A stretch of DNA of 64,000 nt. Origin: Artemia franciscana (Eukaryota; Arthropoda; Branchiopoda; Anostraca; Artemiidae). The notes beneath the pieces are model-generated. The model saw only the letters and a program-made list of their open reading frames with translations, was not told where the DNA came from and ran no database searches. Location: the NCBI RefSeq assembly GCF_032884065.1, contig NC_088867.1:28784476-28848475 (forward strand), given 5' to 3'. Shown one piece after another: positions 43,301-49,300 of this stretch. The position numbers and the translations under genes are program-made. Positions within the stretch are counted from its first letter, which is position 1, and each line of letters begins with the position of its first letter.

Positions 43301-46300
43301 CAGAAGAGCTAAGAGCCAAGATCTCATATGGTATGAGCTCTAAAAAAATTCTAAGAATCAATAGAATCTAAGAATCAATCATTTAAAAGAAAAATCAGAG
43401 GATTAATGCCGGTTGGGATTCAAAATAAGAGCTATGAGCCACGATGTCCTTCTAAATATCAAAATTCATTAAGATCCGATCACCCATTCGTAAGTTGAAA
43501 ATACCTCATTTTTCTAATTTTTCCTCTCCCTTTAGCCCCCCAGATGGTCGAATCTGGGAAAACGACTTTATCAAGTCAATTTGTGCAGCTCCCTGACACT
43601 CCTACCAATTTTCATCGTCCTAGCACGTCCAGAAGCACCAAACTCGCCAAACCACTGAACCCCTTCCCCCCAACTCCCCCAAAGAGAGCGAATCCAGTAC
43701 GGTTACGTCAGTCACGTACCTAAGACATTTGCTTATTCTATCCACCAAGCTTCATCCAGATTCCTCCACTCTAAGCGTTTTCCAAGATTTCCGATTTCCC
43801 CCTCCAACTCCCCAAATGTCAATAGATCTGGTCGAGATTTGAAATAAGAGCTCTGAAACATGGATTCCCTCTAAATATCAAATTTCATTAAGATGCGGTC
43901 ACCTGTTCTTAAGTTAAAAATACCCCAATTTTTCCATTTTTCCAAATTAACACCCCCAGCTCCTCCAAATAAAACGGATCCGTTCCGATTATGTCAATCA
44001 CGTATCTAGAAATTGTGCTTATTCTTCCCATCAAGTATAATCCCGATCTCGCCACTCTAAGCGTTTTCCAAGATTTCTGTTTCCCTGTTCCAACCCCTAT
44101 GTTCCCGGATCTAATTCAAGTCGAAAATGGAGCATCTGAGACATAAGATCCTTCTATATATCAAGTTTCATTAAGATCCGATCACCTATGCATAAGATGA
44201 AAAGACCCCAATTTTCAGGTTTTCCAAGAATTCCGGTTTCCTCGTCCAACTCCCCCCAATGTCACAGGATCTGGTCGGAGTTTAAAATAAGAGCTTTAAA
44301 GCACACGATCCTTCTAAATATCAAATTTTATTAAGATCTGACCACCCGTTTGTAAGTTAAAAATACCTTATTTTTCGGAATTACCCCCCCACCCCCACTC
44401 CACTAAAGAGCGGATCCGGTCAGGTATTGTCAGTCACGTATCTTAGGCTTGTTTTTATTCTTCCCATCCAGTTTCATCCTGATCTCTCCGTTTTAAGTAT
44501 TTTCTAAGATTTCCGCCCCCCCCCAATGACGCTGGATCCGGTTGATATTTAAAATAAGAGATCTGAGTTACGAGGTCCTTCTAAATATGAAGATCACGAA
44601 GATCCGATCACTCCTTCGTAAGTTAAAAATACGTCATTTTTTCTATTTTTTCAGAATTAACCCTCCCCCCAATTTCCCCAAATAGAGCGAATCCGTTCCA
44701 ATTATGTCAATCAAGTGTCTAAGACTTCTGCTTGTTTTTCCCACCAAGTTTCAACCCGATACCTCCACTATAAGCGTTTTCCATGATTTTAGGTTCCATT
44801 CCCACCAAACTCCCCCCCCAAATGTCAGCAGATCCGATCGAGATTTAAAATAAGAGCTTTGAGACACGATATCCTTCTAAATATCAAATTTCATTGAGAT
44901 CCGATCACCCGTTCGTAAGTTAAAAAATACCTAATTTTTTCTAATTTTTCAGAATTACCCCCCCCCCCCCCCAACTACCCCAAAGAGAGCGAATCCGTTC
45001 CAGTTATGTAAATTACGTATCTAGGACTTGTGCTTTTTTCCCACCAAGTTTCATCCCAATCCCTCCACTCTAAGTGTTTTCCAAGATTTTAGGTTCCACC
45101 CTCCCAACTCCCACCAATGTCACCAGATCCGGTCGGGATTTAAAATAAGAGCTCTGAGACATGATATCCTTCCAACATCAAATTTCATTAAGATCTGATC
45201 AACCGTTCGTAAGTTAAAACTACTTCGTCATTTTTTCTAATTTTTCCTCTCCCTTTAGCCCCCCTGATGATCGAATCTGGGAAAATGACTTTATCAAGTC
45301 AATTTATGCAGCTCCCTGACACGCCTACCAATTTTCATCGTCCTAGCACGTCCAGAAGCACCAAACTCTCCAAAGCACTGAACCCCTCCCCAGACTCCCC
45401 CAAAGAGAGCGATTCCAGTACGGTTAAGTCAATCGCGTATCTACGACATTTGCTTATTTTATCCACCAAGCTTCATCCAGATTCCTCCACTCTAAGCGTT
45501 TTCCAAGATCTCCAATTTCCCCCCTCCAACTCCCCCCAATTTCAACAGATCTGGTCGAGATTTGAAATAAGAACTCTGAAACATGAATTCCTTCTAAATA
45601 TCAAATTTCATGAAGATCCTTCCAAACATCAAATTTCATTAAGATCTGATCAACTGTTCGTAAGTTAAAAATACTTCGTCATTTTTTTCTAATTTTTCCT
45701 CTCTCTTTCACTTTTTCTATTTTTTCCAAATTAACAGGCCCCCCACTCGCCCCCCAGATGGTCAAATCGGGAAAAAGACTATTTCTAATTTAATCTGGTT
45801 TGGTCCCTGATACGCCTGCCAAGTAACATCGTCCTAGCTTACATGGAAGTGCCTAAAGTAGCAAAACCGGGACCGACAGACAGACCGACAGAATTTGTGA
45901 TTGCTATATGTCACTTGATTAATACCAAGTGCCATAAAAACATGTCGTAAAAAATGGGGAATCAAGCTGTGAATAAAGAGTCCCGAAAGAAAACTAACCA
46001 AAACTTAACATAAAACTAAGGCGGGAATAGCGTTTATATGAAATAAATAAAAAAAACAAGTTTTTTAAACTGAAAATAAGGAGCAACATTAAAACTTAAA
46101 ACGAACAGAAATTACCCTGCATACGAAAGGGGCTGTTCCCTCTTCAACGCCCTGCTCTTTACGCTAAAGTTTTTACTGTTTTAAAAATTAGAGTTGAGAG
46201 AAAGAGTCAAACTTTAGCGCAAAGAGCAGGGCGTTGAAGAGGGAACAGCCCCTTTTTTGTCGTAGCAAAAAACGTGTTTTTGCCGTAGCGAAAAACAGCA

Positions 46301-49300
46301 AATTTGCAGTCTCCGGTAGTCGTCGTCATTACCTCTAGGATTTGAATTGCCCAGAGGGGATAGCCCGCAAATTTGGCTAGGAATAAGTCACCGATTTTAA
46401 TGTTCGCACGAAAAAATTAGAAAAAAATTTTCTAATTTTTCCTCTCCCTTTAGCCCCCCTGATGGTCGAATCTGGGAAAATGACTTTATCAAGTCAATTT
46501 ATGCAGCTCCCTGACACGCCTACCAATTTTCATCGTCCTAGCACGTCCAGAAGCACCAAACTCGCCAAAGCACTGAGCCCCTCCCCCAACTCCCCCAAAG
46601 AGAGCGATTCCAGTACGGTTACGTCAATCACGTATCTACGACATTTGCTTATTCTATCCACCAAGCTTCATCCAGATTCCTCCACTCTAAGCGTTTTCCA
46701 AGATCTCCAATTTCTCCCCTCCAACTCTCCCCAATTTCAACAGATCTGGTCGAGATTTGAAATAAGAACTCTGAAACATGAATTCCTTTTAAATATAAAA
46801 TTTCATGAAGATCCTTCCAAACATCAAATTTCATTAAGATCTGATCAACCGTTCGTAAGTTAAAAATACTTCGTCATTTTTTTCTAATTTTTCCTCTCCC
46901 TTTCATTTTTTCTATTTTTTCCGAATTAACAGGCCCCCCACTCGCCCCCCAGATGGTCAAATCGGGAAAAAGACTATTTCTAATTTAATCTGGTTTGGTC
47001 CCTGATACGCCTGCCAAGTAACATCGTCCTTGCTTACATGGAAGTGCCTAAAGTAGCAAAACCGGGACCGACAGACAGACCGACAGAGTTTGTGATTGCT
47101 ATATGTCACTTGATTAATACCAAGTGCCATAAAACCATGTCGTAAAAAAATGGGGAATCAAACTGTGAATAAAGAGTCCCGAAAGAAAACTAACCAAAAC
47201 TTAACATAAAACTAAGGCGGGAATAGCGTTTATATGAAACAAATAAAAAAAACAAGTTTTTTAAACTGAAAATAAGGAGCAACATTAAAACTTAAAACGA
47301 ACAGAAATTACCCCGCATACGAAAGAGGCTGTTCCCTCTTCAACGCCCTGCTCTTTACGCTAAAGGTTTTACTGTTTTAAAAATTAGAGTTGAGAGAAAG
47401 AGTCAAACTTTAGCGCAAAGAGCAGGGCATTGAAGAGGGAACAGCCCCTTTTTTGCCGTAGCAAAAAACGTGTTTTTGCCGTAGCGAAAAACAGCAAATT
47501 TGCAGTCTCCGGTATTCGTCGTCATTACCTCTAGGATTCGAATTGCCCAGAGGGGATAGCCCGCAAATTTGGCTAGGAATAAATCACCGATTTTAATGTT
47601 CGCGGGATTCATGCCTAGTAAATGAATACATGAAACTACTTGATGAAACTTATATATTTAAAATCAGCATTAAAATGCGATTCTTTTGATGAAACTATTG
47701 GTATGAAAATTCCGTTTTTTAGTGTTTTGTTTACTATTGAGCCGGGTCGCTCCTTACTACAGTTCGTTACCACGAACTGTTTGAAAGAAACTTTATTATA
47801 TGCTGGCTGTTTAATAAAAAAGAAAACTTAATAATAATTTAACTTTAATAAATAAATAAACTTTGATATATAATATTAAACTTTAAATAACAATAAATAA
47901 TAAATAATAATAATAGTAATAAATAATAAAAAATGAATAATAGTAATAAATAATATAAATAATAAATAACAGCAATTAATAAATATTAAACTTTAATAAT
48001 AGATAAACTTTATTTTATTTATTTATCCTGGCTCTGTTTTGCTTGAAATTTATTAAGGTTAGGTGCACTGCTCAGGAATTATCAATAGGTTTTAAGTGAC
48101 ATAATTTCAAAAACGTCGGGAAACACCCACGAAAGGTAGTCTAATCTTGATGGATATTGCACCATCATATTACGAATGCTTAAAACCCCATAGAAAAAAA
48201 TCAAGCCCCTTTCCATGATAGTGCAAAATGTCATTTTTTCGTATCACAGGTACGTTTTATTTATTTTATATATAAATTTTCTTAGTTCTGATTACAAGTA
48301 AGATAATTTTTCAACAATCCACATTAATGTTTTCGTAGTTTTTATGTTAAATCTTTCAAGTATTGAGCATACTGGATCTACGGAAATAGCTACCAGACCT
48401 TACATTTCTTTTTATTGAAAAAACTTAAAATACTATGCGGGAGTTAGGGTTATACATCCATCAAAATAGGAAAATTTTTCCTAAATTGGCTAAGAAAAAA
48501 CCGTACTGCCCTTCTCCCCCATTAAATCTTTCAAAAATATCCCCTCCTATGGAAAAATCTTTGATGACAAAAGTCTTCTTATCAATTTTAGTTAATATAA
48601 AAACGATATTTTCATATAGTTTTTCCAATAAATAAAAAAAGAAACCTTTGCAGAGTTTTCACTTATAAGTCCGGTAACATGAATTATAAGTCCGATTAAA
48701 AAATGTTCAGGAACACAATGTTTGTGAATTAAGCTTCAAAATAATAATTTAAGACCTAAGCATTAGGATATTTTGTCTTTGCAACATTAGCAAAGTTAAA
48801 TACAAATACCTTTTACATTTGCACTTCATGAATGAGTGTAAAAAATGGAATATATAAAAACATACAGTCTTTGAAGTGTATAACGTGAGCGCTTGTTTTT
48901 AATGTGGTTGGAAAAAAGATACAGACAAAGAAAACAATTCTTTATACTGGATAAATAATAATACTGATACCTTCCAATGGTGCTATATCGATAATAAGGC
49001 TGTTATTAAGTGAACTTGAAAACATCGAGGCTTAAAATTAAAGTTAGGGTAGCCTTCTGTCTCTCAATTCTCTAGAGACCGTCAATTGTCAAAAACCCTT
49101 GCACTTATTCATTGGCGGAAATAGCAGGTTAATTATACCAGCTTGTCAATTTGGTCTCTAGGGCGATCTGAAACGATTCTTTCAGGCAAAAAACTTGTAA
49201 AATTTCAGGTAGCTGAAAATATTCTATGGGACTGTTCGAAAACAGGAAAATACATCGAAAAACGGTTGCAATCATCTTATAAGTTATTGTCTTCTGCTCA

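Follow-up and report, generated by a model that had tools for sequence, protein, structure and literature searches.

A PWWP fragment in a duplicated foldback repeat of Artemia franciscana appears to derive from ORF1 of a LINE group that carries the complete domain

We analyzed a 64,000-nucleotide (nt) stretch of the Artemia franciscana genome (NC_088867.1, positions 28,784,476 to 28,848,475; hereafter the window), in which a ~1.2-kb tandem duplication encodes part of a PWWP chromatin-reader domain on the minus strand. Judged by its sequence, the donor of this fragment is the 5' end of open reading frame 1 (ORF1) of a non-long-terminal-repeat retrotransposon, or long interspersed nuclear element (LINE), and not a host gene, as an earlier sequence-only reading of the window had proposed. 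The window feature itself is very probably a truncated, tandemly duplicated copy of a palindromic foldback repeat that carries the 5' piece of a PWWP-bearing LINE. The PWWP of interest is the intact domain in the LINEs, not the fragment in the window.

The nearest relatives of the fragment in the searched genome (a 1.27-Gb assembly of 6,468 contigs) are LINE ORF1s. Copy 2 of the window is 89% identical in amino acids (aa) to locus L049 over 47 aa and 93.7% identical in nucleotides, part of the 5' leader included, while locus L017, from another LINE family, is 64% identical to the ORF1 start over 44 residues. The ORF1 of L049 is 355 aa long with a complete PWWP (PF00855, 32.4 bits, profile positions 1-90 of 93). 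Downstream of it lies the start of a second frame (ORF2), of which 110 aa were fetched; this piece has no Pfam match and matches other ORF2 starts, among them that of L016 (41%, E 1.3e-20). The fragment by itself resembles HDGF and JASPer, as it would if the repeat had captured a host chromatin gene of that kind; this is highly improbable with LINE ORF1s far closer, and within the searched genome host-gene capture is refuted.

The features of the window on which this account draws are as follows.
45233..46407, no strand: unit 1 of the ~1.2-kb tandem duplication (blastn self-match of 97.4% and alignment)
46408..46427, no strand: 20-nt junction between the units, acgaaaaaattagaaaaaaa, read from the letters
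46428..47603, no strand: second unit of the duplication, bounded on the left by the junction, its right flank continuing into the LINE piece
46126..46255, no strand: foldback stem-loop of copy 1, with 47-nt arms (46126-46172/46209-46255) that are 98% complementary
47322..47451, no strand: foldback stem-loop of copy 2, with 47-nt arms (47322-47368/47405-47451) that are 91% complementary
46040..46408, no strand: homology to the genome-wide palindromic repeat, copy 1 (94.4% to L041 over 372 columns, via L029)
47247..47626, no strand: homology to the genome-wide palindromic repeat, copy 2 (96.1% to L041 over 382 columns, via L029)
46273..46408, minus strand: LINE 5'-end fragment, copy 1, the ORF1 start with PWWP core (L049 reverse strand nt 386-522, 92.7% nt identity)
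47469..47626, minus strand: LINE 5'-end fragment, copy 2, the ORF1 start with PWWP core and ATG (L049 reverse strand nt 364-522, 93.7% nt identity)
47452..47468, minus strand: part of an out-of-frame repeat of the final LINE nucleotides (TTTTTTGCTACGGCAAAAAA), encoding a spurious FFATAKK; the copy 1 equivalent is 46256-46272
47403..47612, minus strand: 69-aa open frame consisting of the PWWP core (residues 3-46), a repeat-derived tail, a foldback-arm tail, and a stop

The tandem duplication described in the sequence-only reading was confirmed by a blastn self-match of the window (45233-46407 versus 46428-47603, 97.4% identity). Once aligned, the units show 29 substitutions and one gap column in 1,176 columns, with four of the substitutions in the 152-nt PWWP part. 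Adjacent near-identical units could be an artefact of assembly; we give this explanation almost no weight, because the units differ at these 29 columns and a 20-nt junction lies between them. Together with the first bases of unit 2, the junction makes up an inverted repeat (inverted match 46412-46440), which may have had a template-switch-like origin. As had also been claimed, copy 2 has an uninterrupted 69-aa frame from ATG to stop (47612-47403); the frame of copy 1 is open as well, but its ATG was removed by the junction. The stem-loop of copy 1 has relatives at other places in the window.

The minus-strand PWWP core reported for both units was borne out by two kinds of comparison. A local profile built from five typed PWWP domains gave the two frames 28.8 and 28.1 bits; of 1,567 frames in the window, the next reached 8.2 bits, and no more than 10.6 bits was reached in any of 60 Markov-shuffled windows. 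Phmmer searches of PDB returned almost exclusively PWWP proteins: 19 of 19 matches up to E 10 for copy 2 (best HDGF, E 1.2e-4), 19 of 20 for copy 2 without its tail (best E 8.2e-4; the other was a profilin, E 1), and 19 of 21 for copy 1 (the others being a lectin, E 0.41, and a profilin, E 0.72). The Pfam check suggested earlier did give a PF00855 match for the window frames, but at 16.0 and 15.2 bits, under the 25.6 cut-off, the fragment being half a domain; once the arm-coded tail was removed, the match was no longer reported. The PWWP signal is thus weak by Pfam yet specific. No further convincing PWWP part was found in the window by the local profile, and the idea of a spliced host exon belonging to a gene that continues nearby was rejected on the same next-best score and because the LINE accounts for the piece. 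Scans of the window against Rfam and NCBIfam gave 0 matches each. Pattern scans of IMG/VR (9 and 50 matches, 0 exact) and of GTDB contigs (67 matches) yielded no relative, in collections that may omit the window's own or near genomes.

The residues LFP, which the sequence-only reading had counted as part of the PWWP core, are foldback-arm sequence and lie outside the domain. Homology to the nearest relatives ends at FRYGK, beyond which a 23-nt out-of-frame repeat of the final LINE bases (encoding FFATAKK) is followed by the foldback arm (GLFPLQ..PALCAKV). The arm tail is worth 2.7 bits in the local PWWP profile, a gain equalled by 36 of 2,000 random and 30 of 3,000 genomic tails, and LFP as the end of the domain was rejected on these grounds. 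At the LINE/foldback junction of palindrome copies such as L045, L041, and L042, a variable number of 23-24-nt repeats is present.

The capture is not confined to the duplication in the window. A 55-residue query of the fragment gave 985 genome candidates, of which the best 150 were scored, all with E < 1e-18 and 75-100% identity; two of these were the window itself. By hand count, 15 pairs among these best 150 of 985 lie <3 kb apart (877-2,945 nt) in divergent orientation. The search for further repeat copies proposed earlier led to 18 non-window foldback loci that were fetched (L030-L036 and L038-L048), and all 18 match L049 between nt ~190 and ~522 at 90-95%. The shared LINE piece is 333 nt long (leader plus ~48 codons of ORF1) and is present, whole or interrupted, in 18/18. 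Its breakpoints agree where they were read, at the 5' end in six loci and at the 3' end in four (the L032 locus stops just past the 3' end); in L035, L048, and one arm each of L041 and L042 the piece is interrupted or shorter. It sits in both palindrome halves, pointing outward, between the palindrome core and the foldback arm. Long inverted repeats arranged as a palindrome in many copies, as in a foldback element, are seen in L032 (1513-3165) and L047 (1539-3156), which are 90-92% self-complementary over ~1.65 kb with a LINE piece in each half, and the palindrome core is common to all 18 fetched loci. The window copies are without the core and retain ~370-380 nt of the palindromic repeat per unit. 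The claim that a PWWP piece had been captured inside a non-coding repeat with foldback arms therefore held up.

We infer that the foldback repeat would have taken up the 333-nt LINE 5' piece, a direction suggested because the same ORF1 start belongs to complete domains in other LINE families; in the window, the truncated repeat would have been duplicated once more at the DNA level. The converse, in which a LINE would owe its 5' end and its PWWP start to the foldback repeat, would agree with the common piece being, so far as homology can tell, the L049 5' part, and with all 18 non-window loci fetched with the fragment query being palindromes. It is nevertheless very unlikely, since four other LINE families hold a homologous PWWP start within a complete domain, whereas the palindromes fetched contain half a domain only.

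Selection on the fragment was assessed in 25 copies by counting changes from the majority base and comparing them with a neutral simulation. There were 29 synonymous and 61 non-synonymous changes (one of them a stop), with 24.7 +/- 4.3 synonymous changes expected under neutrality (p = 0.185), and 1 stop was observed versus 2.8 expected (p = 0.23). Substitutions among these copies look neutral, with no clear signal of selection, and the captured fragment is probably inert. The neutral pattern of this comparison, which had been set beforehand as a refuting test, therefore does not support the targeting role proposed earlier for the window fragment. Could the ~100-120-aa PWWP frame of the palindromes be under selection, as a micro-protein or a decoy belonging to the foldback element? 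By comparison, 27 of the best 150 of 985 matches (hand count) have a stop in the aligned part, and stops among the 25 copies were fewer than expected, as such a role would have it. We consider this very unlikely, as the ratio of synonymous to non-synonymous changes is compatible with neutrality, the tail past residue ~48 differs in frame and content among copies, and the copies were selected by protein score.

Several points weigh against a LINE-derived, inert fragment in a foldback repeat. (i) The 25 copies were chosen by protein similarity, which biases them toward constraint, and L041 and L042 are near-duplicates. (ii) The 90 substitutions give low power, and weak constraint is compatible with them. 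(iii) At least 10 of the best 150 matches are LINE copies rather than palindromes, and a minority of the remainder were inspected. (iv) For the palindrome, neither outer ends nor target-site duplications were found. (v) The donor family is represented at the DNA level by a single locus, L049. (vi) The final P of the PWWP motif is lost in the window copies, which read WA.

PWWP is abundant in this genome because it is carried by LINEs. A genome search with PF00855 gave 733 candidates; among the 150 that were scored, 55 lie in open frames of 349-441 aa. Twenty stretches with a PWWP frame were fetched. In 18 of them, to judge from position and shared sequence, the PWWP frame is ORF1, and ORF2 frames belonging to the same families lie behind it in the same orientation; L025 and L026 are not of this ORF1-ORF2 type. 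Both frames are open in 6 of the 18 loci, where ORF2 is a single frame of 1,009-1,014 aa (L010, L014, L015, L016, L017, and L019). Five LINE families with a complete N-terminal PWWP were recognized, with ORF1s 35-61% identical to that of the donor L049, and one ORF1 per family scored above the PF00855 cut-off of 25.6 bits (L049 32.4, L009 38.6, L015 36, L017 35, and L022 32.6 bits). Pfam scans of ORF2 in 6 of the 18 loci (L010, L016, L017, L012, L019, and L021) identified an APE-type endonuclease and a reverse transcriptase (RT) in four families, the two domains being in separate frames in L021; the RT of L017 matches LINE-1 ORF2p (E 4.8e-18). In matched pieces, members of one family show 92-99% identity; several pairs have a common 5' end, and some pairs share less. 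Their 3' tails are short tandem repeats, for example (TGTCTA)n and (ATCTT)n. No target-site duplications of the LINEs were obvious by eye in the printed flanks, and no systematic search for them was made.

Other PWWP frames were seen beside those of the LINEs. Short frames of 106-144 aa, of the GYPKWPVRIVDT type, occur at L026:4146-4481, L026:4804-5121, and L008:1369-1800, the L026 pair being ~660 nt apart, and L026 has no frame of >=140 aa in the PWWP direction; these are perhaps another PWWP-bearing repeat. L005 holds a host-like frame of >1,000 aa with a PWWP of 41.8 bits and a sub-threshold bromodomain match (19.0 versus 21.7).

An alignment of 11 ORF1s from the five families gives the same order throughout: an N-terminal PWWP, then a coiled-coil-like middle and a conserved C-terminal region. 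PF00855 is matched by all 11; the ORF1 profile matches HDGF across the whole domain (E 3.5e-12) and coiled coils weakly at positions 180-225 (E 0.018 and worse). Among the Pfam matches of these ORF1s at E <= 0.05 (21 families), there was no PHD, esterase, CCHC, RRM, or Transposase_22; Baculo_FP_2nd matched 3 of the 11, the best listed at 22.6 bits, below its cut-off of 24. Between families, dS by NG86 is undefined or >1, and the PWWP shows a smaller dN than the middle part does in 9/9 pairs, and a smaller one than the C-terminal part in 3/9 (for L049-L017, PWWP 0.27, middle 0.41, and C-terminal 0.27). Within families, PWWP dN/dS is mixed (0.031/0.034 for L009-L012; 0.009/0.076 for L020-L022). 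The case for constraint on the LINE PWWP therefore relies on its retention in five diverged families.

PWWP is a modular head of ORF1, because a sibling ORF1 family without it keeps the middle and C-terminal parts. Residues 60-355 of the L049 ORF1, used as a query, gave 136 matches (2,753 candidates, 132 scored), at least 17 of which, by hand count, have an open frame of exactly 271 aa in which the match starts at query residue 34-36. Two copies were fetched.
L050, G000:C12:37000-39300: PWWP-less ORF1 copy
L051, C13:35440400-35442700: PWWP-less ORF1 copy

Both share the middle and C-terminal parts of the PWWP ORF1s and start with MSSRPKRKG. The local profile found no PWWP in the three forward frames of either, and Pfam found none in the 271-aa frame of L050. 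In an unrooted ORF1 tree, L050 and L051 attach among the PWWP families with supports of 68 and 73.

The intact ORF1 PWWP would read H3K36-methylated nucleosomes or DNA, and it would tether the LINE ribonucleoprotein to chromatin much as LEDGF and JASPer tether their partners. It is possible, and we propose it tentatively, that this LINE group carries its own LEDGF/JASPer-like PWWP reader on the ORF1 protein and docks its retrotransposition complex on H3K36-methylated gene bodies. The cage motif [YF]-x-x-W is present in 11/11 ORF1s, with Y or F at residue 20 and an invariant W23. Counting against the proposal, the reader function is read from sequence, and the third cage position, which we take to correspond to F44 in LEDGF, is C in 9/11 ORF1s, W in L006, and Y in L023; the strength of binding is uncertain because of this C. 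According to the accessible text of PMC6877644, joint alanine mutation of Y23 and W26 in JASPer abolished specific H3K36me3 binding. By manual alignment, the equivalents of these two residues are the Y/F at residue 20 and the W23 found in all 11 LINE ORF1s.

The window holds further features outside the LINE fragment and its foldback repeat.
47638..47784, no strand: unrelated interspersed repeat directly past the LINE fragment (82-93% matches in L011, L016, L023, and L026)
43447..45753, no strand: C/T-rich repeat array with a spacing of ~270-420 nt, its last part inside the duplicated unit

A small hairpin, CACTTG..CAAGTG, stands next to GACAGACAGACCGACAG at 47102-47131 and 45907-45936, with identical letters in both (z -3.3 for the second copy), and presumably resembles the ends of Helentron-type elements. 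The decayed remnant of a LINE ORF2 lies at 56539-58635 (plus strand); pieces of it are 31-51% identical to PWWP-LINE ORF2. Another retroelement relic, at 51155-51922 (plus strand), contains a frame that matches RVT_1 (34 bits) and, below threshold, DUF6451; a tblastn comparison with three PWWP-LINE ORF2s gave nothing at E <= 1e-4. An NHL-repeat frame (109 bits) at 22682-23320 (minus strand) is probably a host-gene exon.

LEDGF/p75 is a PWWP tethering protein, and both LEDGF and HRP2 combine a PWWP with an integrase-binding domain. The PWWP of the LINE ORF1s is of the same HDGF/LEDGF/JASPer type; LEDGF/p75 and JASPer are host proteins, whereas here the retroelement would bring its own reader. 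The ORF1s do not fit the HDGF/LEDGF host proteins, with no integrase-binding-domain model among the Pfam matches of the 11. Chromoviruses are LTR retrotransposons with a chromodomain reader on the integrase that may steer insertion; they are alike in that a mobile element encodes a chromatin reader and differ in both element class and domain. Foldback, or long-inverted-repeat, transposons are large multicopy palindromes able to carry foreign pieces, and foldback repeats with captured pieces have long been known. In the present repeat, the piece is the 5' part of a LINE in both halves.

A close published parallel is in the PHD-bearing ORF1s of LINEs of the CR1/L2 lineage, which, according to the accessible text of PMC4120745, likewise have a modular domain of the histone-reader type, sometimes N-terminal, and an ORF2 with APE and RT; the reader in the A. 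franciscana LINEs is a PWWP and not a PHD. The same text sorts Jockey-superfamily ORF1s into types I-IV, characterized by RRM/CCHC, Transposase_22, PHD, or esterase domains. The PWWP-LINE ORF1s belong to none of these and would be placed in type V, unclassified, in that scheme. As of 2014, its authors could find no functional study of PHD readers in LINE ORF1. The word PWWP is absent from the main text of that paper, and likewise from the main texts of PMC3905857 and PMC10827361. As far as the accessible texts go, a transposon inserted into a PWWP gene (PMC3978060) and host JASPer at telomeric retrotransposons (PMC6877644) have been described. No earlier description of PWWP in LINE ORF1 was found in the open-access full-text literature, seen mostly as titles and with Repbase not covered. 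LINEs with a PWWP head appear to be new within that literature; PHD readers in LINE ORF1 were already published.

For the window, these results mean that a chromatin-domain relic in a repeat need not indicate capture from a host gene. More broadly, how LINEs choose chromatin is largely open, and the PWWP-LINEs bear on this question: with PWWP families and a PWWP-less sibling in one genome, A. franciscana offers a natural comparison. If the reader interpretation is true, the same LINE chassis would exist with and without a chromatin-targeting head, and a reader that directs insertion should leave headed and headless families with different distributions over genes.

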